Below are positions 27,577-35,624 of a DNA stretch of 63,034 bases, piece by piece. The stretch is from positions 1 through 63,034 of the forward strand of contig JAAYIG010000198.1 of assembly GCA_012523595.1 (NCBI GenBank). The letters run 5' to 3'. The notes below the pieces were generated by a model. The model did not search any database. It worked only from the letters and a program-made list of their open reading frames with translations, and was not told the DNA's origin. The position numbers were made by a program, and so were the translations under genes. The DNA is from Fibrobacter sp. Its GTDB lineage: Bacteria > Fibrobacterota > Chitinivibrionia > Chitinivibrionales > Chitinispirillaceae. Positions within the stretch are counted from its first letter, which is position 1. Each line of letters starts with the position of its first letter.

Positions 27577-27641
27577 TCCCCGGGTCCATTTGACTCCCCA
27601 TGAATCCTGATTAATTTTTAACCAGAGGTAAATAGTTTCTC

Positions 27642-29156
27642 ATGAGAAAGACTGATAAATCCGTCATTTTCATTCTCCTTCTTTGCATTACGGTTCTGAA
27701 AGTCAATTCTGAACAAAAAATGCCCGTACTGCAGACATTGACAAAAGCTTCACAGAAGGACAGCACAGTCAACCTCTCCGAGTTAATCACCCCTGACAGC
27801 GCCTATATAGCTGCGCCATCGATAAGAAGCGTTCTTTCAGGAGAAATCGTTGATATAGAGATAGTCCCCCGATGTACTGTCGATTCTGTGATGATTCTGG
27901 TCAGACATTCTGAAAACCGGATCGATTCTCTTGGGGTTGTCCGCAGGGCACCCTATAAGTTGAAATGGGACCCCTCAAACTGTCCTGATCAGGATCAGAT
28001 TCACCTTCAATTCGGATACATCCTGTACAAAGAACAAAACCGGAAGATAATCTGCCCCCCTATGCCGCACAGATGGGTTCTGGACAGAGATAAACATCTC
28101 AGCCGCAAAAAAGTCAGCTGTCGCCAGACAACCACCCCTGAAAAGATCAAAATTGACGGGGATCTCTCCGACTGGAAAAATGTAAAGGAAATCCGGATTA
28201 GTTCAGAAGGCACATTCCGGATTTTGTGGAGTAATTCACATATCCTGTTTGCTGCCCATGTAAAAGACAGCTCAGTAACATACTCCGATTTTCTTGAACT
28301 CCATTTTGATCTTCACAATGATAAAAGCAATTTTTCAGGCATAAACCATCGCAGCATCCGCTTTGGTCCCAAAACCCGCAGCAACAGTTTCACAGTTGAT
28401 CTCACCAAAGATGGTTTCATTCTCAGTGACAGCGTCAATGTCCTGCTCAGCCGTGAGATGAAGTGGGCCAGATCTTTTACAGATGGTTACACAATTGAGG
28501 CCTCGATACCGTTTTTCTGCTTATCTGATCTGCAGTTCCCGAATATGAAATTCGGCTTTGATGTCTCCATATTCAACTCTGATAATGATGGAACGCGCAG
28601 GTTTACAAGCTGGTCCGGAACGACTTTCTCAAACAGGTATAACCCAAGTCAGTGGGGAACCATCAGGCTCAAACAGGCCCTCCCACTTCTGAAACTCCTG
28701 CTTGCCCTTTCGGCAATAATCACCGGAGTTGTTATAACCTTTGTTATATCAATACTGATAAAGCAGTGCCGTGATGACTACAAATACGAAGAACTGGAAA
28801 ACAGAGGCACATCTGAGTTGATGAGTTCCATTCTTGTAAGTATGCGCCGGATGATCAGCAATTCTGAACTGGATCTGGAGGCATTTTCAAAGGAAACAGG
28901 GATTGACCGGGAGAAAATAGAATCGGAAATCCAGGCTGAAACCGGCGGCGATTTCACGAGTCTTCTGACATTTGAGCGAATCCGTTCTGTCAAAGAATTG
29001 TTGCGGGATGCAGACATTCCCTTCGACGAGATAGCTGCAAAGACTGGTTTTACAGATTTGGACAATATGAGAATTACTTTTAATCAGATTACCTGCACCA
29101 CCCCGGAAAAATACCGGGAAAGGATCAAAGAGGAAGAGAACAGCGAAGAAGAGTAG
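27642..29156 (+). CDS. membrane-bound AraC-type regulator with CBM9-like periplasmic domain
   Basis: This 504-residue protein spans the inner membrane. A signal or first membrane segment (about 8-24) is followed by a periplasmic part of about 320 residues. Its second half (about 165-345) looks like a family 9 carbohydrate-binding/DOMON-like fold: KIKIDGDLSDWKNVKEI, LWSNSHILFAAHVKDSSV, DFLELHFD, YTIEASIPF and MKFGFDVSIFN. One transmembrane helix follows (about 347-374, LLLALSAIITGVVITFVISI). A cytoplasmic AraC/XylS-type helix-turn-helix completes it (about 405-495, FEEIAAKTGF-like FDEIAAKTGFTDLDNMRITF, then TTPEKYRER). This predicts a one-protein sensor that binds DNA in response to a periplasmic sugar or glycan. 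No two-component modules are present. The target genes are unknown. Confidence 0.8.
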   Translation: MRKTDKSVIFILLLCITVLKVNSEQKMPVLQTLTKASQKDSTVNLSELITPDSAYIAAPSIRSVLSGEIVDIEIVPRCTVDSVMILVRHSENRIDSLGVVRRAPYKLKWDPSNCPDQDQIHLQFGYILYKEQNRKIICPPMPHRWVLDRDKHLSRKKVSCRQTTTPEKIKIDGDLSDWKNVKEIRISSEGTFRILWSNSHILFAAHVKDSSVTYSDFLELHFDLHNDKSNFSGINHRSIRFGPKTRSNSFTVDLTKDGFILSDSVNVLLSREMKWARSFTDGYTIEASIPFFCLSDLQFPNMKFGFDVSIFNSDNDGTRRFTSWSGTTFSNRYNPSQWGTIRLKQALPLLKLLLALSAIITGVVITFVISILIKQCRDDYKYEELENRGTSELMSSILVSMRRMISNSELDLEAFSKETGIDREKIESEIQAETGGDFTSLLTFERIRSVKELLRDADIPFDEIAAKTGFTDLDNMRITFNQITCTTPEKYRERIKEEENSEEE

Positions 29157-29167
29157 AAGCTGCTCTT

Positions 29168-29908
29168 TTACATTTTTTCCAGGTACCTGGGAATCAGTGA
29201 TCTGAGTCCCGTATCACCCTCGAATTTCATGTATTTAAAATGCAGTCTGTCCAGTATCTGATTGGCATCCTCCTCGAAGTCGAGCAGGTATGTATTCATT
29301 CCACTGTCATTTATGCATTCCGGGTCGCAACAGGAAGGGTTCGAAAGATTGATATAGATTCTGCATGTAAACGGCCTGACAGCATAAATACTGCATCTAT
29401 TGCTCCTGTCAAGCAGAGGGCAAGGCCTTTTCATCTGATAATAAACGGACAGCAACAGATCAATTTCATCTATCTGCTCCCTGTCATCACCGGACTCCAA
29501 AAGCCGTTTTTGTACAAGGTCATTCAATCTTTCCAGTTCCAGGCAGTCACTCCGGCAGGTTTCAATTATCCTCTTAACCTCACCGGGCATGGCAGTATGG
29601 ATATATCCGGCGATAATTTCAGCCTCGAACGAATTTACATCCTCAACCCAGTGAAAACAGCACGTTGCACATGTCTCCCTGCAGCAGCACTTAAATTCAG
29701 TATCATTGAGTACTTCTTTCTGAAATATGTCGAAAAGCCGATGAACCTCTTTGAGTGTGGAAACAAACTCTTCATCAAGGCATGAGGAGAAAGAACCCTC
29801 TTCGAGTGACTTCAGCAGCATCAATATTTCCTTATGAATGGAGACAGCCTGAGGTGTCAAAGACAATACACTTGAGGTTTGTTTTCTTTTTTCTGGATAG
29901 TCCATCAT
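29168..29908 (-). CDS. YkgJ-type cysteine-cluster protein
   Basis: This 246-residue soluble protein carries FKCCCRETCATCCFHWVED (about 81-99) and a second cluster (CPLLDRSNRCSIYAVRPFTC, then RIYINLSNPSCC). These are the 'CxxxCxxCC ... CPxL...C.IYxxRPxxCR' pattern of the YkgJ family, which is predicted to bind zinc or an iron-sulfur cluster. The biochemical role is unknown. The YkgJ domain starts near residue 80, so the first 80 residues are an extra helical segment. Its start shares one base with the stop of the upstream barrel gene (TGATG). Confidence 0.85.
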   Translation of the reverse strand: MMDYPEKRKQTSSVLSLTPQAVSIHKEILMLLKSLEEGSFSSCLDEEFVSTLKEVHRLFDIFQKEVLNDTEFKCCCRETCATCCFHWVEDVNSFEAEIIAGYIHTAMPGEVKRIIETCRSDCLELERLNDLVQKRLLESGDDREQIDEIDLLLSVYYQMKRPCPLLDRSNRCSIYAVRPFTCRIYINLSNPSCCDPECINDSGMNTYLLDFEEDANQILDRLHFKYMKFEGDTGLRSLIPRYLEKM

Positions 29909-31440
29909 CAGTTGGGAAGTCGCAGCCGGAAATTACTGAAATGAAAGGATAATTCAGCTCTTATTGATGGTACTAATTCGAAACTGGAAGTAGAAATATT
30001 GTCTTTGTTTTTCACCCATTTTGAGGACCCGGAAAGAGAAAGGTCCGCATAATTCCTGTAATAAAACCTGGTTTCCAACAGTATCTCGAATCCTTTTTCA
30101 CGGATAGAATCTCTGTCAACCGGAAGGCCCTTCGTATTTCCCTCTTCACTATCCTGCCATTTGGTAAGAACATTATTTCCACCATTTCTAAAGAAAGCCA
30201 TTTCAAAGCCCGAGGCCCAGTAGTTTTTACCGATAATATCAAAGCCCGCACTTATCCGGTCAAAATCATTCTCCGACATTCCGAGGCTTTTGTCCCAATA
30301 AATGTAACGTTCTCCATTATTGGCATTGTTGTCCGGAACAGTGTACATCCAGGGCGAAACATAAGTACAGGTGGTTTTCAGCAGATGATTCATGGGTAAT
30401 TTAAAAGGATTTCTCCAGAAAATGCCCATGTCAATTCCCCAGTGAGCAGGCTCCTTATCTGTAATTTTCTCATCATCTACCTGAAAATCATCAAAAGCAA
30501 CCTGTCCCCTGAAGCAGACATCCTCGATTAGAGGATGAATATTCCATTGAAAAGCAAGTACCAGATTCCCTTTTCCCTCCTGATTTGTATTTACTACAGT
30601 GTAAGCCGAAAACGGGTTTATATACTGCAGGTCGGGAAAATGTTTGGTGCGGGTAAACAGGACCGTTTCGGTCAGCCCCAGGGTTACCCATTTCCCCAGC
30701 ATCAGATTAAGAGAATGAGCAGTTAAAAACCTGTTGAGATCAGCATTATTATCGGAATCTCTATGATCCGAGCGGTTATAGTGAAAGGCTGCGAAAATAT
30801 GGCGAAATTCAAAAAGAGATGAGCGGAGCTGCCACTCCAGTGCATCGTAGCTGTATGGATTTGAAGATAACACCAGGCTTCTGTCTGCAAACGGTCCCCA
30901 GTTTCTGTTCAGTCTGCCCAGACGGAAAAAACCGTATTTCCAATCGACCTGAACAAAGGCCTCATCGAACCGGCCTCTAAGATCACGATCTTTGTGAGCA
31001 GGATAAAGTTTATCATATTCATACCTTTTATCCACATTTACCACCTGCCTGACCAGCAGATGTCTGTATCTTATCTGATTAAGAATGTTTATCTGAAAGT
31101 AGGATCTGCTGTTTTCATCAGAAAGCACCGGTCCATAACCGCCCATGACCTGCGGTTCCAGAAAAAGGTAATTTATGCTGTCCGTTGATTCTCCCGGAAA
31201 CCATATCGACCTGTCAAATACATCGGCTTCTCCGATATTGTCCCAGAACATCCCGCTTGGAGACTTATCGGCAAGTTCCATATCCGCTGCTGTATTGAAG
31301 AATGGTTTACGCCAGTTCTCAAGCGGTACCCCGTAAACGAAGGAAAAGGTCAATAACAGGAGCAGAACAAGTCTGATAAAAGCTGAAGAACTTAATTTTG
31401 TAAACATCTCAGTAAGCTGTATCTCTCTTAAAAAGGACAA
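29908..31440 (-). CDS. Wzi-like outer-membrane beta-barrel protein
   Basis: The protein has 510 residues, with an N-terminal signal (LVLLLLLTFSFVYG, about 25-38). The rest is rich in amphipathic strands with aromatic ends (YFQINILNQIRYRHLLVRQV, DWKYGFFRLGRLNRNWGPFA) and ends in FHFSNFRLRLPN, a barrel-type C-terminus. The 'GRxxxxWGP' motif near the middle is characteristic of the capsule-assembly Wzi family, a lectin that holds capsule on the cell surface. It overlaps the sugar-transferase gene by 32 bases, and that supports a role in polysaccharide export or attachment. Confidence 0.7.
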   Translation of the reverse strand: MSFLREIQLTEMFTKLSSSAFIRLVLLLLLTFSFVYGVPLENWRKPFFNTAADMELADKSPSGMFWDNIGEADVFDRSIWFPGESTDSINYLFLEPQVMGGYGPVLSDENSRSYFQINILNQIRYRHLLVRQVVNVDKRYEYDKLYPAHKDRDLRGRFDEAFVQVDWKYGFFRLGRLNRNWGPFADRSLVLSSNPYSYDALEWQLRSSLFEFRHIFAAFHYNRSDHRDSDNNADLNRFLTAHSLNLMLGKWVTLGLTETVLFTRTKHFPDLQYINPFSAYTVVNTNQEGKGNLVLAFQWNIHPLIEDVCFRGQVAFDDFQVDDEKITDKEPAHWGIDMGIFWRNPFKLPMNHLLKTTCTYVSPWMYTVPDNNANNGERYIYWDKSLGMSENDFDRISAGFDIIGKNYWASGFEMAFFRNGGNNVLTKWQDSEEGNTKGLPVDRDSIREKGFEILLETRFYYRNYADLSLSGSSKWVKNKDNISTSSFELVPSIRAELSFHFSNFRLRLPN

Positions 31441-32785
31441 TGACTGTTTTAAATATGATCTTAATATCGAGCCAGATGCTCCAGTTATCGATATATTTGA
31501 GGTCGAGCCTTACAATGTCATCGAAGTTGCTTATCTTGTTTCTTCCTGAAACCTGCCATAATCCTGTGATTCCCGGACGGATACTGATTCTGCGATGGTG
31601 CCATTTCTGGTATTTAGAGACTTCATCCGGGGTCGGGGGTCTGGTACCTACGAGTGACATTTCACCCTTGAGCACGTTAAAAACCTGCGGCAGTTCATCA
31701 AGACTTAACTTACGCATGATTTTGCCTATTCTGGTAACCCTTGGATCGTCTTTTATCTTGAACACCGCCCCATCACATTCATTAAGCTTTTCAAGCTCCT
31801 GTTTCCTCTTCTCCGCATCAGCAGCCATTGAGCGGAATTTGTAAATGACAAATCTCTTGCCGTTTTTCCCTACTCTTACCTGTTTGAAAAAAACCGGTCC
31901 CTTTGATGTAAGCTTGATAGCCACAGCAAGGAAGGGATATAAAATGATAAGAGCAAAGAGGCCTGCAATTCCCCCGGCAAGATCAAACAATCTTTTAAAA
32001 AGCATCTGATCAGGGTCGAGTTCCACAGTATGGGAAAGAAGTGTAGGACGGCCCATGAAGCGGTGATATTCCCACCTTGCAAAGTATGTGGCCCCGGAAA
32101 TATTAAGAAACACACGGGCGGGACGCCCCATCTCCTCACAGATCTGCAGGTAAGAATCAACCGAAAAACCCTCTTTTGTCATCTTCCTTGGAATACAGAA
32201 AAACACCTCTTCAACGTAGCTGTTCTTGAGAACCTCTTCGAATTCAGAGGGCTGAATTCCCAGATCCAGTTTACGGATCATGCGAAGGCCCCATTCGGGA
32301 TGATTGCTTATTTCCTGATGGATCTGCGAGGCCATCCTGCCTCTTCCAATCAGAATCACCGGAGTTGTATTGCGGTTATAACGGCGTATACGGGCTATTG
32401 TACGTTTGACAAATAGTTTTTCCGATGCTATAAATACAAATGAGATAGCGGCAAATGTCAGGTAAAGGTATCTGCTGTTGTGGCTGTCCGGGAGAAGATA
32501 AAGTATAGAGGCGCCCAGAATACCAGCGGATATGAAAATCGCCACCACCCTGCGCATCAAACCTCGCATCCAGTTGAAGTGCAGTATGGAGAAAAGCGAT
32601 CTTGTCCAGGCAAAATAAAGGTAAAAGCCCATGAATCCGATCACCATTATCCAGTAGTTAAGAATAGGATGGAGGTTACGGTGTATGGCTGTTATTGAAT
32701 AAGCAATGTAGAATGCTGCAACCAGCAGAACACAATCAATCAGGGCAATAGCCTGCTTTATAAAAGAGGAATGTTCTTTAAGCAT
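31409..32785 (-). CDS. polyprenyl-phosphate sugar transferase (WbaP/WcaJ type)
   Basis: The protein has 458 residues. Four N-terminal membrane helices are followed by a Rossmann-like middle segment (PVILIGRGRMASQIHQEI). The C-terminal bacterial sugar-transferase domain (about 260-458) shows KRLFDLAGGIAGLFALIILY, GPVFFKQVRVGKNGKRFVIY then KFRSM, SLDELPQVFNVLKGEMSLVG then TRPP, and RPGITGLWQVSGRN. It loads the first sugar-phosphate onto undecaprenyl phosphate, initiating exopolysaccharide or O-antigen repeat units. It sits in a long operon between an AgmX-type lipoprotein and a Wzi-like barrel. Confidence 0.93.
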   Translation of the reverse strand: MLKEHSSFIKQAIALIDCVLLVAAFYIAYSITAIHRNLHPILNYWIMVIGFMGFYLYFAWTRSLFSILHFNWMRGLMRRVVAIFISAGILGASILYLLPDSHNSRYLYLTFAAISFVFIASEKLFVKRTIARIRRYNRNTTPVILIGRGRMASQIHQEISNHPEWGLRMIRKLDLGIQPSEFEEVLKNSYVEEVFFCIPRKMTKEGFSVDSYLQICEEMGRPARVFLNISGATYFARWEYHRFMGRPTLLSHTVELDPDQMLFKRLFDLAGGIAGLFALIILYPFLAVAIKLTSKGPVFFKQVRVGKNGKRFVIYKFRSMAADAEKRKQELEKLNECDGAVFKIKDDPRVTRIGKIMRKLSLDELPQVFNVLKGEMSLVGTRPPTPDEVSKYQKWHHRRISIRPGITGLWQVSGRNKISNFDDIVRLDLKYIDNWSIWLDIKIIFKTVIVLFKRDTAY

Positions 32786-32787
32786 TT

Positions 32788-33786
32788 TTACTCGGGATTA
32801 AACTCAAACGGAAATTCGAAACTCATATTTCCTACCTCTTCAGGTACTGGTTTGAACCGGATATTCATGACGTATGCTGATAGAAGGTCAGAAAATTCCT
32901 TATCATTGACACTGGATTTGCTGATTTTAGCATCAATTACTTTTCCGGAGGCATCCACCAGAAAAGTGATCATCACCGTGCCGCTCATATATTCTTTTAT
33001 CTTTAGCCGCTTTTTGTAAATGGATTTCAGGTTGGGAATGTGTTTCTCGATGGAATCCCGGATTGACTGCTGCCCCCGGTATTTTAGCGCAGTGAGGGAA
33101 TTATCCACTACTTTTTTCTGAACAAGTGGTTTCCTGGTTTCTTTGACGGTGTCGGTTTTCTCTCCGGTGTAAACCAACCCTTTAATGATACGCTCAGCAT
33201 CCTCACTGCTCATCACATCCTGCTGATCTTTCACAAATTCAAAAAGAAGCTGTCCTGCAGTTTCAGAGATACCGAAAATACCGCTGAAAAACCGTTCAAT
33301 TTCTTCTTGTTTTTCCAGTTTTACACTGTCCGGGAAAACTGCTGTCAAGCCAGGTCCCGTACTGTCTCCCTTATTATACTGCATAAAAAGAGATTCAGCA
33401 TAGGCAGCAACCGAGTTGCTTGAAGATAATTCATTCAATTTGCGGTAAAGAACCCGTCCTGAAGAAAGCAGGAGCCCCGCTCCCCTGGGAGTCCATTCCT
33501 CACCCGCTCGAAGCTGAAGCTGCTCAGAAAACCTTATGGCAAGGGAATCCACACCGGAATCATCAGTTTCCGAGGCAATTGCCTTGCGCAGCTTGATATT
33601 TTTGATACGCACGGAGTCACTTGGTGCCACCGGGTCGAGTTTAACAAGCTGTTCAACTGTAAGGGACTCAGAACCAATAATTATGACCTGTGAATCCTTT
33701 TTCTTTGCACAAGAGAATAAAAGCAGGGGAATTACTGCTCCCAGAACAGCCAACCGGTAAAACAAATTTTCCTTGATCCGCATCAT
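32788..33786 (-). CDS. lipoprotein with AgmX/PglI-type C-terminal domain
   Basis: The protein has 332 residues. The lipoprotein signal ends in VIPLLLFSC (Cys26). The middle is unassigned and helical. The last 90 residues (NLKSIYKKRLKIKEYMSGTV, MITFLVDASGKVIDAKI, FSDLLSAYVMNIRFKPVPEE then FPFEF) form the TonB-C-like AgmX/PglI C-terminal domain, found in gliding-motility and envelope proteins of myxobacteria and in Fibrobacterota. It usually accompanies energised envelope complexes. No ExbB/ExbD genes are in the window. The gene ends 2 bases before the sugar-transferase start. Confidence 0.75.
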   Translation of the reverse strand: MMRIKENLFYRLAVLGAVIPLLLFSCAKKKDSQVIIIGSESLTVEQLVKLDPVAPSDSVRIKNIKLRKAIASETDDSGVDSLAIRFSEQLQLRAGEEWTPRGAGLLLSSGRVLYRKLNELSSSNSVAAYAESLFMQYNKGDSTGPGLTAVFPDSVKLEKQEEIERFFSGIFGISETAGQLLFEFVKDQQDVMSSEDAERIIKGLVYTGEKTDTVKETRKPLVQKKVVDNSLTALKYRGQQSIRDSIEKHIPNLKSIYKKRLKIKEYMSGTVMITFLVDASGKVIDAKISKSSVNDKEFSDLLSAYVMNIRFKPVPEEVGNMSFEFPFEFNPE

Positions 33787-34371
33787 TTACCCGCTTAATC
33801 CTGTCCAGGCAAGCACTTCAGACCTCAATGCTTTAATGCTGCTCTCATTGCGAATGTACCTCCAGATCCCTTCCGGAGGCGATTGAAAAAGCTTTTCCTG
33901 CAGTAACATTCTCTCCCTGATAGCCTCTTCCGTGAGCCCACCCGCTTTGGCAAGTAAACGTTTCAGCCTCACATCAAATGATGCAGAAACCCAGACCCTC
34001 TGATCAAACCAGTCTTCGATATGCCAGAGCGGAATCAGAGCCGCATCCAAAACTACCGGCTCTCTTCTGTGTCTCATCAGAAAACAAAGCCTCTCCAGAA
34101 GCGGCGGATGCACAACAGCGTTTAACTTTTTCAATTCCTCAATTGATCCAAAAACAATGCTTCCCAGCCTGTCAAAAGCAATCGATCCGTTTTTGAATAC
34201 CTGCTCACCGAAAATCTCATTAAGCTTCATTTTAATTTCCGGATCGGACTGCATGAGTAACTTGGCTTCCCTGTCGGCATCAACTATGTACGCCCCCGCC
34301 TCAGCCAGAATTCCAGCAACAGTCGATTTACCCGAACCCATATAGCCAGCCAAGGCGATTTTTGCAGACAT
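33787..34371 (-). CDS. coaE: dephospho-CoA kinase
   Basis: This 194-residue enzyme phosphorylates dephospho-CoA in the last step of CoA synthesis. The P-loop GYMGSGKST lies at residues 9-17. VDADREAKLLM matches the family's (I/V)DAD substrate motif, and a lid region is seen near AGGLTEEAIRERM. It lies between the SpoIIE-type gene (5 bases) and the AgmX-type lipoprotein gene (no gap). A housekeeping gene carried in a signalling/envelope operon is common for coaE. Confidence 0.92.
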   Translation of the reverse strand: MSAKIALAGYMGSGKSTVAGILAEAGAYIVDADREAKLLMQSDPEIKMKLNEIFGEQVFKNGSIAFDRLGSIVFGSIEELKKLNAVVHPPLLERLCFLMRHRREPVVLDAALIPLWHIEDWFDQRVWVSASFDVRLKRLLAKAGGLTEEAIRERMLLQEKLFQSPPEGIWRYIRNESSIKALRSEVLAWTGLSG

Positions 34372-34376
34372 TATTC

Positions 34377-35624
34377 TCAGGCAACCGAATGAAATTTTGT
34401 TATAGTGACCCGGTTCCCTTTTTCGTTGTACTCGACCTTATCAACATAATGCCGCACAATGAAGAGGCCCCTGCCGCAGTCTTTAACCAGATTTTCCGGA
34501 AGCGTAGGATCTGGAATACTGTTTGGGTCGAAGCCTTCGCCCTCGTCCAGTATCGATATTACCGTTTTCTTCTTGTCTATAACATGACCCATGATCACTT
34601 TTTTGGAAAAGTCCTTGCCATTTCCATGCAGAATCGCATTCACAAGCAGTTCCGTAAGGGTGATCTTCATTTTTCTGATACTGTCATCAGCATATCCGAA
34701 TTTATCCATACCTGAAAGAATAACCGAAACAGCACGATCCATCTCTTCGTAATAGCTGATAGACTGAAGGTACACCGGATCACCATCGGCAAACCCCAGT
34801 TTATTTTTAATCAGATTCTTTCTTGACTGCGTCAGAACTTCCGCTACGACCGCAGTCACATCATCATCTACATTGGTCTTTGACCTGAATTTTTCATTGA
34901 TAACAGTCAGCAGCTTCTCCGCCCTGCCATCCTTTAAAGACTCACAGGCAGTCTCCTCAAAAAGCATCTTCCCTTCCTGTAAATCATCGGAAAATACCCT
35001 GTAAAGCCCGTCAGTGAGGAGAACCAGGCAATCCCCCGCATTCAGATAAATACTCTGCTCATCAAAAAAACCGTTATCAAACACCCCGATAAATGTACCC
35101 TGTGATTTTAACTGAAGTACCTGATTTTCCTTTTTCCGGTACACAATCGGGCAGGCGTGCCCGGCATTGGAATAGGTCAGCTTGTTATCATGAAGGTCAA
35201 GATAGGCAACAAAGGCAGTAAGATAGAAATCGGCTGAAACATCTCTGATTATTTCACTGTTTACCCGCTCTATGACCGCCCGCGGAGAAAAACCATTACG
35301 GAGATGATTCGAAAAGCAGACTTTTGCAAGCGCGGAGATAAGTGCTGATGGTATCCCGAACCCTGTGACATCAAATATCACAAATGCCAGCACATCGTCT
35401 GAAAGCTTCACCACATCGAAAAGATCTCCCCCAATAGCTCCACAGGGGAGGTAAAGCGAATCAAGCTGCAGACCCTCCAGCACAGGAAGATTACGGGGAA
35501 TCATCGCTGATTGGATCTTACGCGCTATCACCAGTTCTGCATCTCTGGTGTCTGAATCATCTCCCCTGGATGAAGTATTCATTGGTTTCATTTCGATGCT
35601 CTGTGATGAATCGGGGAGTATCAT
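34377..35624 (-). CDS. SpoIIE-type PP2C phosphatase fused to RsbW-like ATPase
   Basis: The protein has 415 residues. The N-terminal PP2C/SpoIIE phosphatase (about 25-265) has metal-binding CGAIGGDLFDVV, DVTGFGIPSAL, YSNAGHACPIVY and LLTDGLYRVF. The C-terminal GHKL ATPase (about 290-413) has the N-box ELLVNAILHGN, the G1 box ISILDEGEGFDP and the G2 GRGLFIVRHYVD. Both phosphatase and anti-sigma kinase activities can exist in one chain, so it may set the phosphorylation of a STAS protein such as the one at 5971-6330. It heads a six-gene operon, and no sensor domain precedes the phosphatase. Confidence 0.9.
   Translation of the reverse strand: MILPDSSQSIEMKPMNTSSRGDDSDTRDAELVIARKIQSAMIPRNLPVLEGLQLDSLYLPCGAIGGDLFDVVKLSDDVLAFVIFDVTGFGIPSALISALAKVCFSNHLRNGFSPRAVIERVNSEIIRDVSADFYLTAFVAYLDLHDNKLTYSNAGHACPIVYRKKENQVLQLKSQGTFIGVFDNGFFDEQSIYLNAGDCLVLLTDGLYRVFSDDLQEGKMLFEETACESLKDGRAEKLLTVINEKFRSKTNVDDDVTAVVAEVLTQSRKNLIKNKLGFADGDPVYLQSISYYEEMDRAVSVILSGMDKFGYADDSIRKMKITLTELLVNAILHGNGKDFSKKVIMGHVIDKKKTVISILDEGEGFDPNSIPDPTLPENLVKDCGRGLFIVRHYVDKVEYNEKGNRVTITKFHSVA

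Follow-up and report, generated by a model that had tools for sequence, protein, structure and literature searches.

Membrane-bound proteins make up less than 3% of one-component transcription factors, according to a survey quoted in a paper on Saccharophagus degradans (PMC2386152). The same paper describes 16 membrane-bound AraC regulators in this organism, several of them adjoining cellulase or xylanase genes and some with two predicted transmembrane regions, which were proposed to be detectors of extracellular polysaccharide. The Vibrio membrane regulator TfoS, annotated as a member of the AraC family, takes part in chitin-induced competence; it controls tfoR on chitin and activates transcription directly from the membrane (PMC7564644, PMC11856585). 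With Saccharophagus and Vibrio TfoS, one-component membrane AraC regulators tied to polysaccharides are already known. CBM9 domains have been described in secreted enzymes such as xylanases, where the carbohydrate is held by an aromatic clamp consisting of W71/W175 in TmCBM9-2 and Y89/W191 in CBM9.3 (PMC8280721).

The window analyzed here, i.e. the whole stretch of 63,034 nucleotides, includes a 504-residue ORF with an ATG start and an open reading frame (Table 1), which begins in the same way (MRK...) in the sister species. Pfam searches identified two domains scoring above their curated cut-offs, CBM9_1 at residues 187-345 (E 5.4e-15) and HTH_18 at residues 416-494 (E 8.6e-11; 42.4 bits versus a cut-off of 33.6), and both were matched in all 18 aligned orthologs; no NCBIfam equivalog was found above cut-off for the window protein. 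The AlphaFold2 model (15 sequences, mean pLDDT 76.6) consists of a beta domain (residues 46-142), a beta sandwich (157-344), a single long helix (348-387), and a set of AraC-type helices (392-494). Structure comparison related residues 156-347 to two solved CBM9 modules, 7nwn from C. kristjanssonii (Z 20.7) and 1i82 from T. maritima (Z 20.6), residues 388-504 to the AraC-type domain of AraT (6swi, Z 16.3), and residues 53-143 to an FnIII/Ig-like module (3pdd, Z 9.7). The hydropathy profile includes one strong membrane segment, at residues 355-373 in the window protein and at the equivalent position in every ortholog, as well as an N-terminal hydrophobic signal in most orthologs.

Table 1. Location of the features of the regulator gene and its surroundings in the window.
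Feature	Positions	Strand	Basis
-35-like box TTGACT upstream of the gene, kept in three genera; weak promoter evidence	27590..27595	+	
CDS, membrane-anchored AraC-type protein with Ig-like and CBM9-like ectodomain, 504 aa	27642..29156	+	ORF, Pfam, model, structure comparison
N-terminal hydrophobic signal and poorly ordered stretch, residues 1-45	27642..27776	+	model, hydropathy
Ig-like (FnIII-type) domain, residues 46-145, with clade motif PDQDQxHLQFGY	27777..28076	+	alignment, model, 3pdd Z 9.7
CBM9-like beta-sandwich, residues 157-345; W71 -> T213, W175 -> R332	28110..28676	+	Pfam, structure comparison, alignments
Predicted transmembrane helix, residues about 347-373	28680..28760	+	model, hydropathy
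AraC-type double helix-turn-helix, residues 392-494, net charge -7	28815..29123	+	Pfam, structure comparison, charge count
Acidic C-terminal tail, acidic in 18/18 orthologs	29124..29153	+	alignment, charge count
Convergent neighbor, CxxCxxCC putative metal-binding protein, 246 aa	29168..29908	-	
Wzi-like capsule assembly protein	29908..31440	-	
WbaP/WcaJ-type polyprenyl-phosphate sugar transferase	31409..32785	-	
Protein with TonB C-terminal-like domain	32788..33786	-	
CoaE-like dephospho-CoA kinase	33787..34371	-	
SpoIIE-type phosphatase/HATPase fusion (anti-sigma-type kinase fold), at the head of the convergent operon	34377..35624	-	

The initial annotation had described a periplasmic CBM9-type domain, one transmembrane helix and an AraC domain joined in a single protein, and this description was borne out: structure prediction recovered both the CBM9/DOMON-type fold and the AraC-type helix-turn-helix on which it had been staked. 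Two elements have to be added to it, an Ig-like domain at the N-terminus and a conserved acidic tail at the C-terminus. The assignment to the CBM9-like fold (PF06452) comes from the profile as well as from the fold match, and the DNA-binding part has the characteristics of the AraC/XylS family, namely two helix-turn-helix motifs and an HTH_18 score above the curated value. CBM9_1 and HTH_18 were the only Pfam domains above cut-off in the window protein, which has neither the histidine kinase nor the receiver of a hybrid two-component system, and the claim of a kinase-free one-component layout therefore holds. The protein is built like a transmembrane transcriptional regulator, with a sensor predicted to be extracytoplasmic, a membrane helix and a helix-turn-helix in one chain, and its role in the regulation of transcription is putative. 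A heme-binding, DOMON-like function was weighed and set aside: no Met of the domain is invariant in the alignment and H236, the one His checked, is replaced by Gln in one ortholog. Behind this idea were weaker fold matches, with Z 14.0 for ethylbenzene dehydrogenase gamma and Z 13.4 for nitrite oxidoreductase.

The window protein shares with the S. degradans regulators, as described in PMC2386152, an AraC-type DNA-binding domain on a membrane protein without a kinase; those regulators are lineage-expanded paralogs located by cellulase or xylanase genes, whereas the window gene is present in single copy by surface-polysaccharide genes. With TfoS it shares the proposed organization of a membrane-anchored AraC family protein with a periplasmic sensor, but the periplasmic part of TfoS is related to hybrid two-component systems and not to Ig and CBM9 domains (PMC11856585, PMC7564644). 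No description of a CBM9-AraC membrane regulator was found in the literature searched, which does not prove that none exists. The initial annotation called a one-component version with this type of sensor unusual; one-component membrane AraC regulators as such do have these precedents.

Orthologs were found only in Chitinispirillales among the 168 genomes of the phylum that were searched, usually one per genome, and roughly half of the genomes searched within the order have a full-length version. The window comes from the order Chitinispirillales of the Fibrobacterota, and the named relatives are MAGs labeled Chitinispirillaceae, Chitinispirillales and related Fibrobacterota. They were recovered by an alignment-based query, while a single-sequence scan of the genome contigs returned no relatives. 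A maximum-likelihood tree of 40 proteins separated three well supported groups: the window orthologs (100/100), a sister group, and a third one named group 2. The sister group consists of copies in two genomes from other Fibrobacterota families, with eight near-full-length matches in G041 and four in G043 (loci L099-L109). The 12 sister proteins scanned included CBM9 in 10 cases, an HTH in all 12 and Big_7 in two. They have the same Ig-CBM9-TM-AraC order and are homologous to the window protein along its length, including the PDQD motif of the Ig domain; unlike the window clade, they are present in several copies per genome, have secreted carbohydrate-active proteins among their neighbors and a basic, canonical HTH_AraC, and lack the acidic tail. 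We conclude that the Ig-CBM9-TM-AraC design in Chitinispirillales is genuine and ancient within its group. When a sister protein was compared with plasmids by tblastn the matches were partial and, among the matches listed, covered the membrane/AraC end.

Group 2 is a second membrane AraC family, of which almost all genomes of the order have a single copy. Its members include an ORF of the window's own genome (contig C197, L002:580-2019) and relatives in L110-L116, and in several genomes the conserved neighbors are a response-regulator-like protein of 658-672 aa and a protein of roughly 345 aa. Many AraC-domain ORFs of about 370-440 aa were also seen in G002, G003, G005, G006, G008, G017, G026 and others; they match the sister profile from the membrane-helix region (positions about 350-504) and possibly define a further membrane-bound AraC family. 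In addition, several secreted proteins adjoining the sister regulators (L099-L107) carry the Por secretion tail (PF18962), which suggests that this lineage has a sorting signal of the type IX secretion kind.

The initial annotation proposed that the protein senses a polysaccharide or sugar and switches on glycan-use genes without a kinase. The CBM9 fold, which is the same over the whole domain as that of the xylanase modules 1I82 and 7NWN (Z about 20.6), and the domain order agree with this proposal, and both S. degradans (PMC2386152) and Vibrio TfoS offer a precedent. The sugar site itself speaks against it. When the clamp positions were mapped by profile and pairwise alignments, W71 corresponded to residue 213 and W175 to residue 332; the former is T, S, C, G, N or M across the 18 orthologs, being aromatic in none, and the latter is Arg in all of them. 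Both clamp aromatics are therefore missing throughout the window clade, and a CBM9 module from which the expected residues are missing failed to bind any of the natural carbohydrates it was tested with (PMC8280721). As judged from these alignments the canonical CBM9 sugar site is absent from the window clade, and a different sugar site is possible. Moreover, no carbohydrate-use genes were found beside the window gene, and its clade is single copy and vertically inherited rather than expanded. On balance we regard a sensor for glycan use as quite unlikely at this locus; the fold and the domain order of the original claim stand, and sugar sensing for glycan use finds no support here. The claim suits the sister clade better, because copies there flank genes for GH30 enzymes, PcRGLX-type (rhamnogalacturonan-lyase-like), chondroitinase-B-like, Sde0182-like cellulose-binding and DUF5060 proteins, a raw adjacency that is counted without the background CAZyme density of the two genomes.

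The conservation of the domains is inverted in the window clade. Mean identities among its orthologs are 46% for the Ig domain, 42% for CBM9 and 28% for the AraC domain, as compared to 29, 35 and 35% in the sister group and 35, 32 and 47% in group 2; the DNA-binding domain is thus the least conserved folded part, below the ectodomain. The mean net charge of the AraC domain is -2.1 in the window clade, versus +3.2 in the sister group and +6.6 in group 2, and the region of helix 3 has a mean charge of -1.8 (0 or below in 18 of 18), versus +2.6 and +4.2. The surface of recognition helix 6 varies freely among genera, in contrast to group 2, where HTH2 is 58% conserved, and PF00165 was recognized in three of the 18 orthologs versus 12 of the 12 sister proteins. 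Together with the acidic tail, these characteristics are what would be expected if the AraC domain had lost sequence-specific DNA binding and the protein were a receptor acting by protein contacts, for instance by antagonizing another regulator or partnering with it, with the ectodomain as its conserved business end. Loss of DNA binding is possible on this evidence, and an AraC fold that no longer reads DNA is the main rival to the reading that we favor, but we consider it rather unlikely. HTH_18 still scores above cut-off and the fold is kept, and a helix-3 charge as low as -2 is also seen among the other AraC-type proteins of these genomes (mean 1.25, sd 2.15, n=32, a control set in which one ortholog and a few proteins of group 2 are counted and whose related rows allow no strict p-value). 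The charges of the window clade are shifted but overlap these controls, so they are suggestive and not diagnostic. The dN/dS values of the AraC domain, in the pairs where they could be estimated, were 0.34 and 0.18 for the two closely related pairs, with a value of 0.32 for a pair that is more diverged, and by this measure the domain is still under purifying selection. The translation of ligand binding into transcription stays putative, the domain being acidic and the least conserved of the folded parts.

The gene lies tail to tail with the Wzi/WbaP operon (Table 1). In 11 of the 19 loci, which belong to three families, members of this operon either adjoin the ortholog or are separated from it by no more than a few genes. 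The comparison of neighborhoods therefore did not yield the glycan-use genes that had been anticipated but, in the majority of ortholog loci, genes for surface-polysaccharide assembly. This order could be a chance conservation in a slowly rearranging region, with no functional tie between the regulator and the operon and with unrelated targets elsewhere. Across the order neither needs the other: Wzi occurs without the regulator in G005, G014, G025, G027, G031 and G032, and the regulator occurs where no Wzi was found (G004, G013, termite-gut genomes). Among the genes of the operon are also unrelated ones such as coaE, and nadA/nifS, on the other side of the window gene, are likewise conserved in several loci. 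Against this, the linkage survives in three families although most of the further surroundings have changed. We give slow rearrangement as the sole cause a substantial chance, if clearly less than an even one; it is compatible with an envelope ligand and overlaps the explanation that we prefer.

The initial annotation had also suggested looking for a shared operator. Upstream regions were aligned for the gene itself, once across three genera and once across three related genomes, and for the convergent operon in the sister species. These alignments had promoter-like conservation and no convincing shared direct repeat. The promoter-like region upstream of the SpoIIE/HATPase gene is conserved in the sister species.

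The explanation that we prefer, to which we give close to an even chance, is that the window protein is a membrane-anchored one-component regulator that senses a conserved endogenous envelope ligand or partner and controls a small set of envelope genes. The periplasmic Ig-like and CBM9-like domains would recognize either a glycan of the surface or cell wall or a partner protein in the periplasm, and the ligand would not be a diet sugar gripped by the customary clamp of CBM9. On the model of known transmembrane regulators we infer that binding rearranges the one membrane helix of a protein that is probably dimeric, and that this change may alter the activity of the AraC-type domain on its few envelope genes; the ligand, the dimerization, the DNA targets and the operon as one of them are all features that we likewise infer. 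An envelope ligand or partner is favored because the ectodomain is conserved, the sugar clamp is missing, and the neighbors are surface-polysaccharide genes. That between genera the ectodomain is better conserved than the DNA-binding domain is expected if the ligand is constant, and not if it is a changing food glycan. The retention of the regulator in the reduced genomes from termite guts, where searches found no Wzi, and its descent in one 100/100 clade, also count for this explanation. Against it, the link with Wzi is not obligatory, the AraC domain is acidic including the first recognition-helix region, no shared operator was found, and the missing clamp aromatics leave room for a different sugar site. 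These readings are not mutually exclusive. A further one, which we hold to be unlikely, is an order-wide single-copy receptor in which the AraC logic is reversed: the Ig-CBM9 part would be the conserved core, with a non-clamp ligand site marked by the invariant Arg, and the AraC fold would signal via protein contacts without reading an operator.

Little is understood of the small class of membrane-bound one-component regulators, and this family provides a natural comparison within one phylum, between a multi-copy sister clade located by carbohydrate genes and an order-wide, single-copy clade in which the clamp is gone, the ectodomain is conserved and the DNA-binding part is drifting. The comparison would make it possible to ask directly what is sensed by a receptor of this kind after it has ceased to be a food sensor, and whether its AraC fold still needs DNA.
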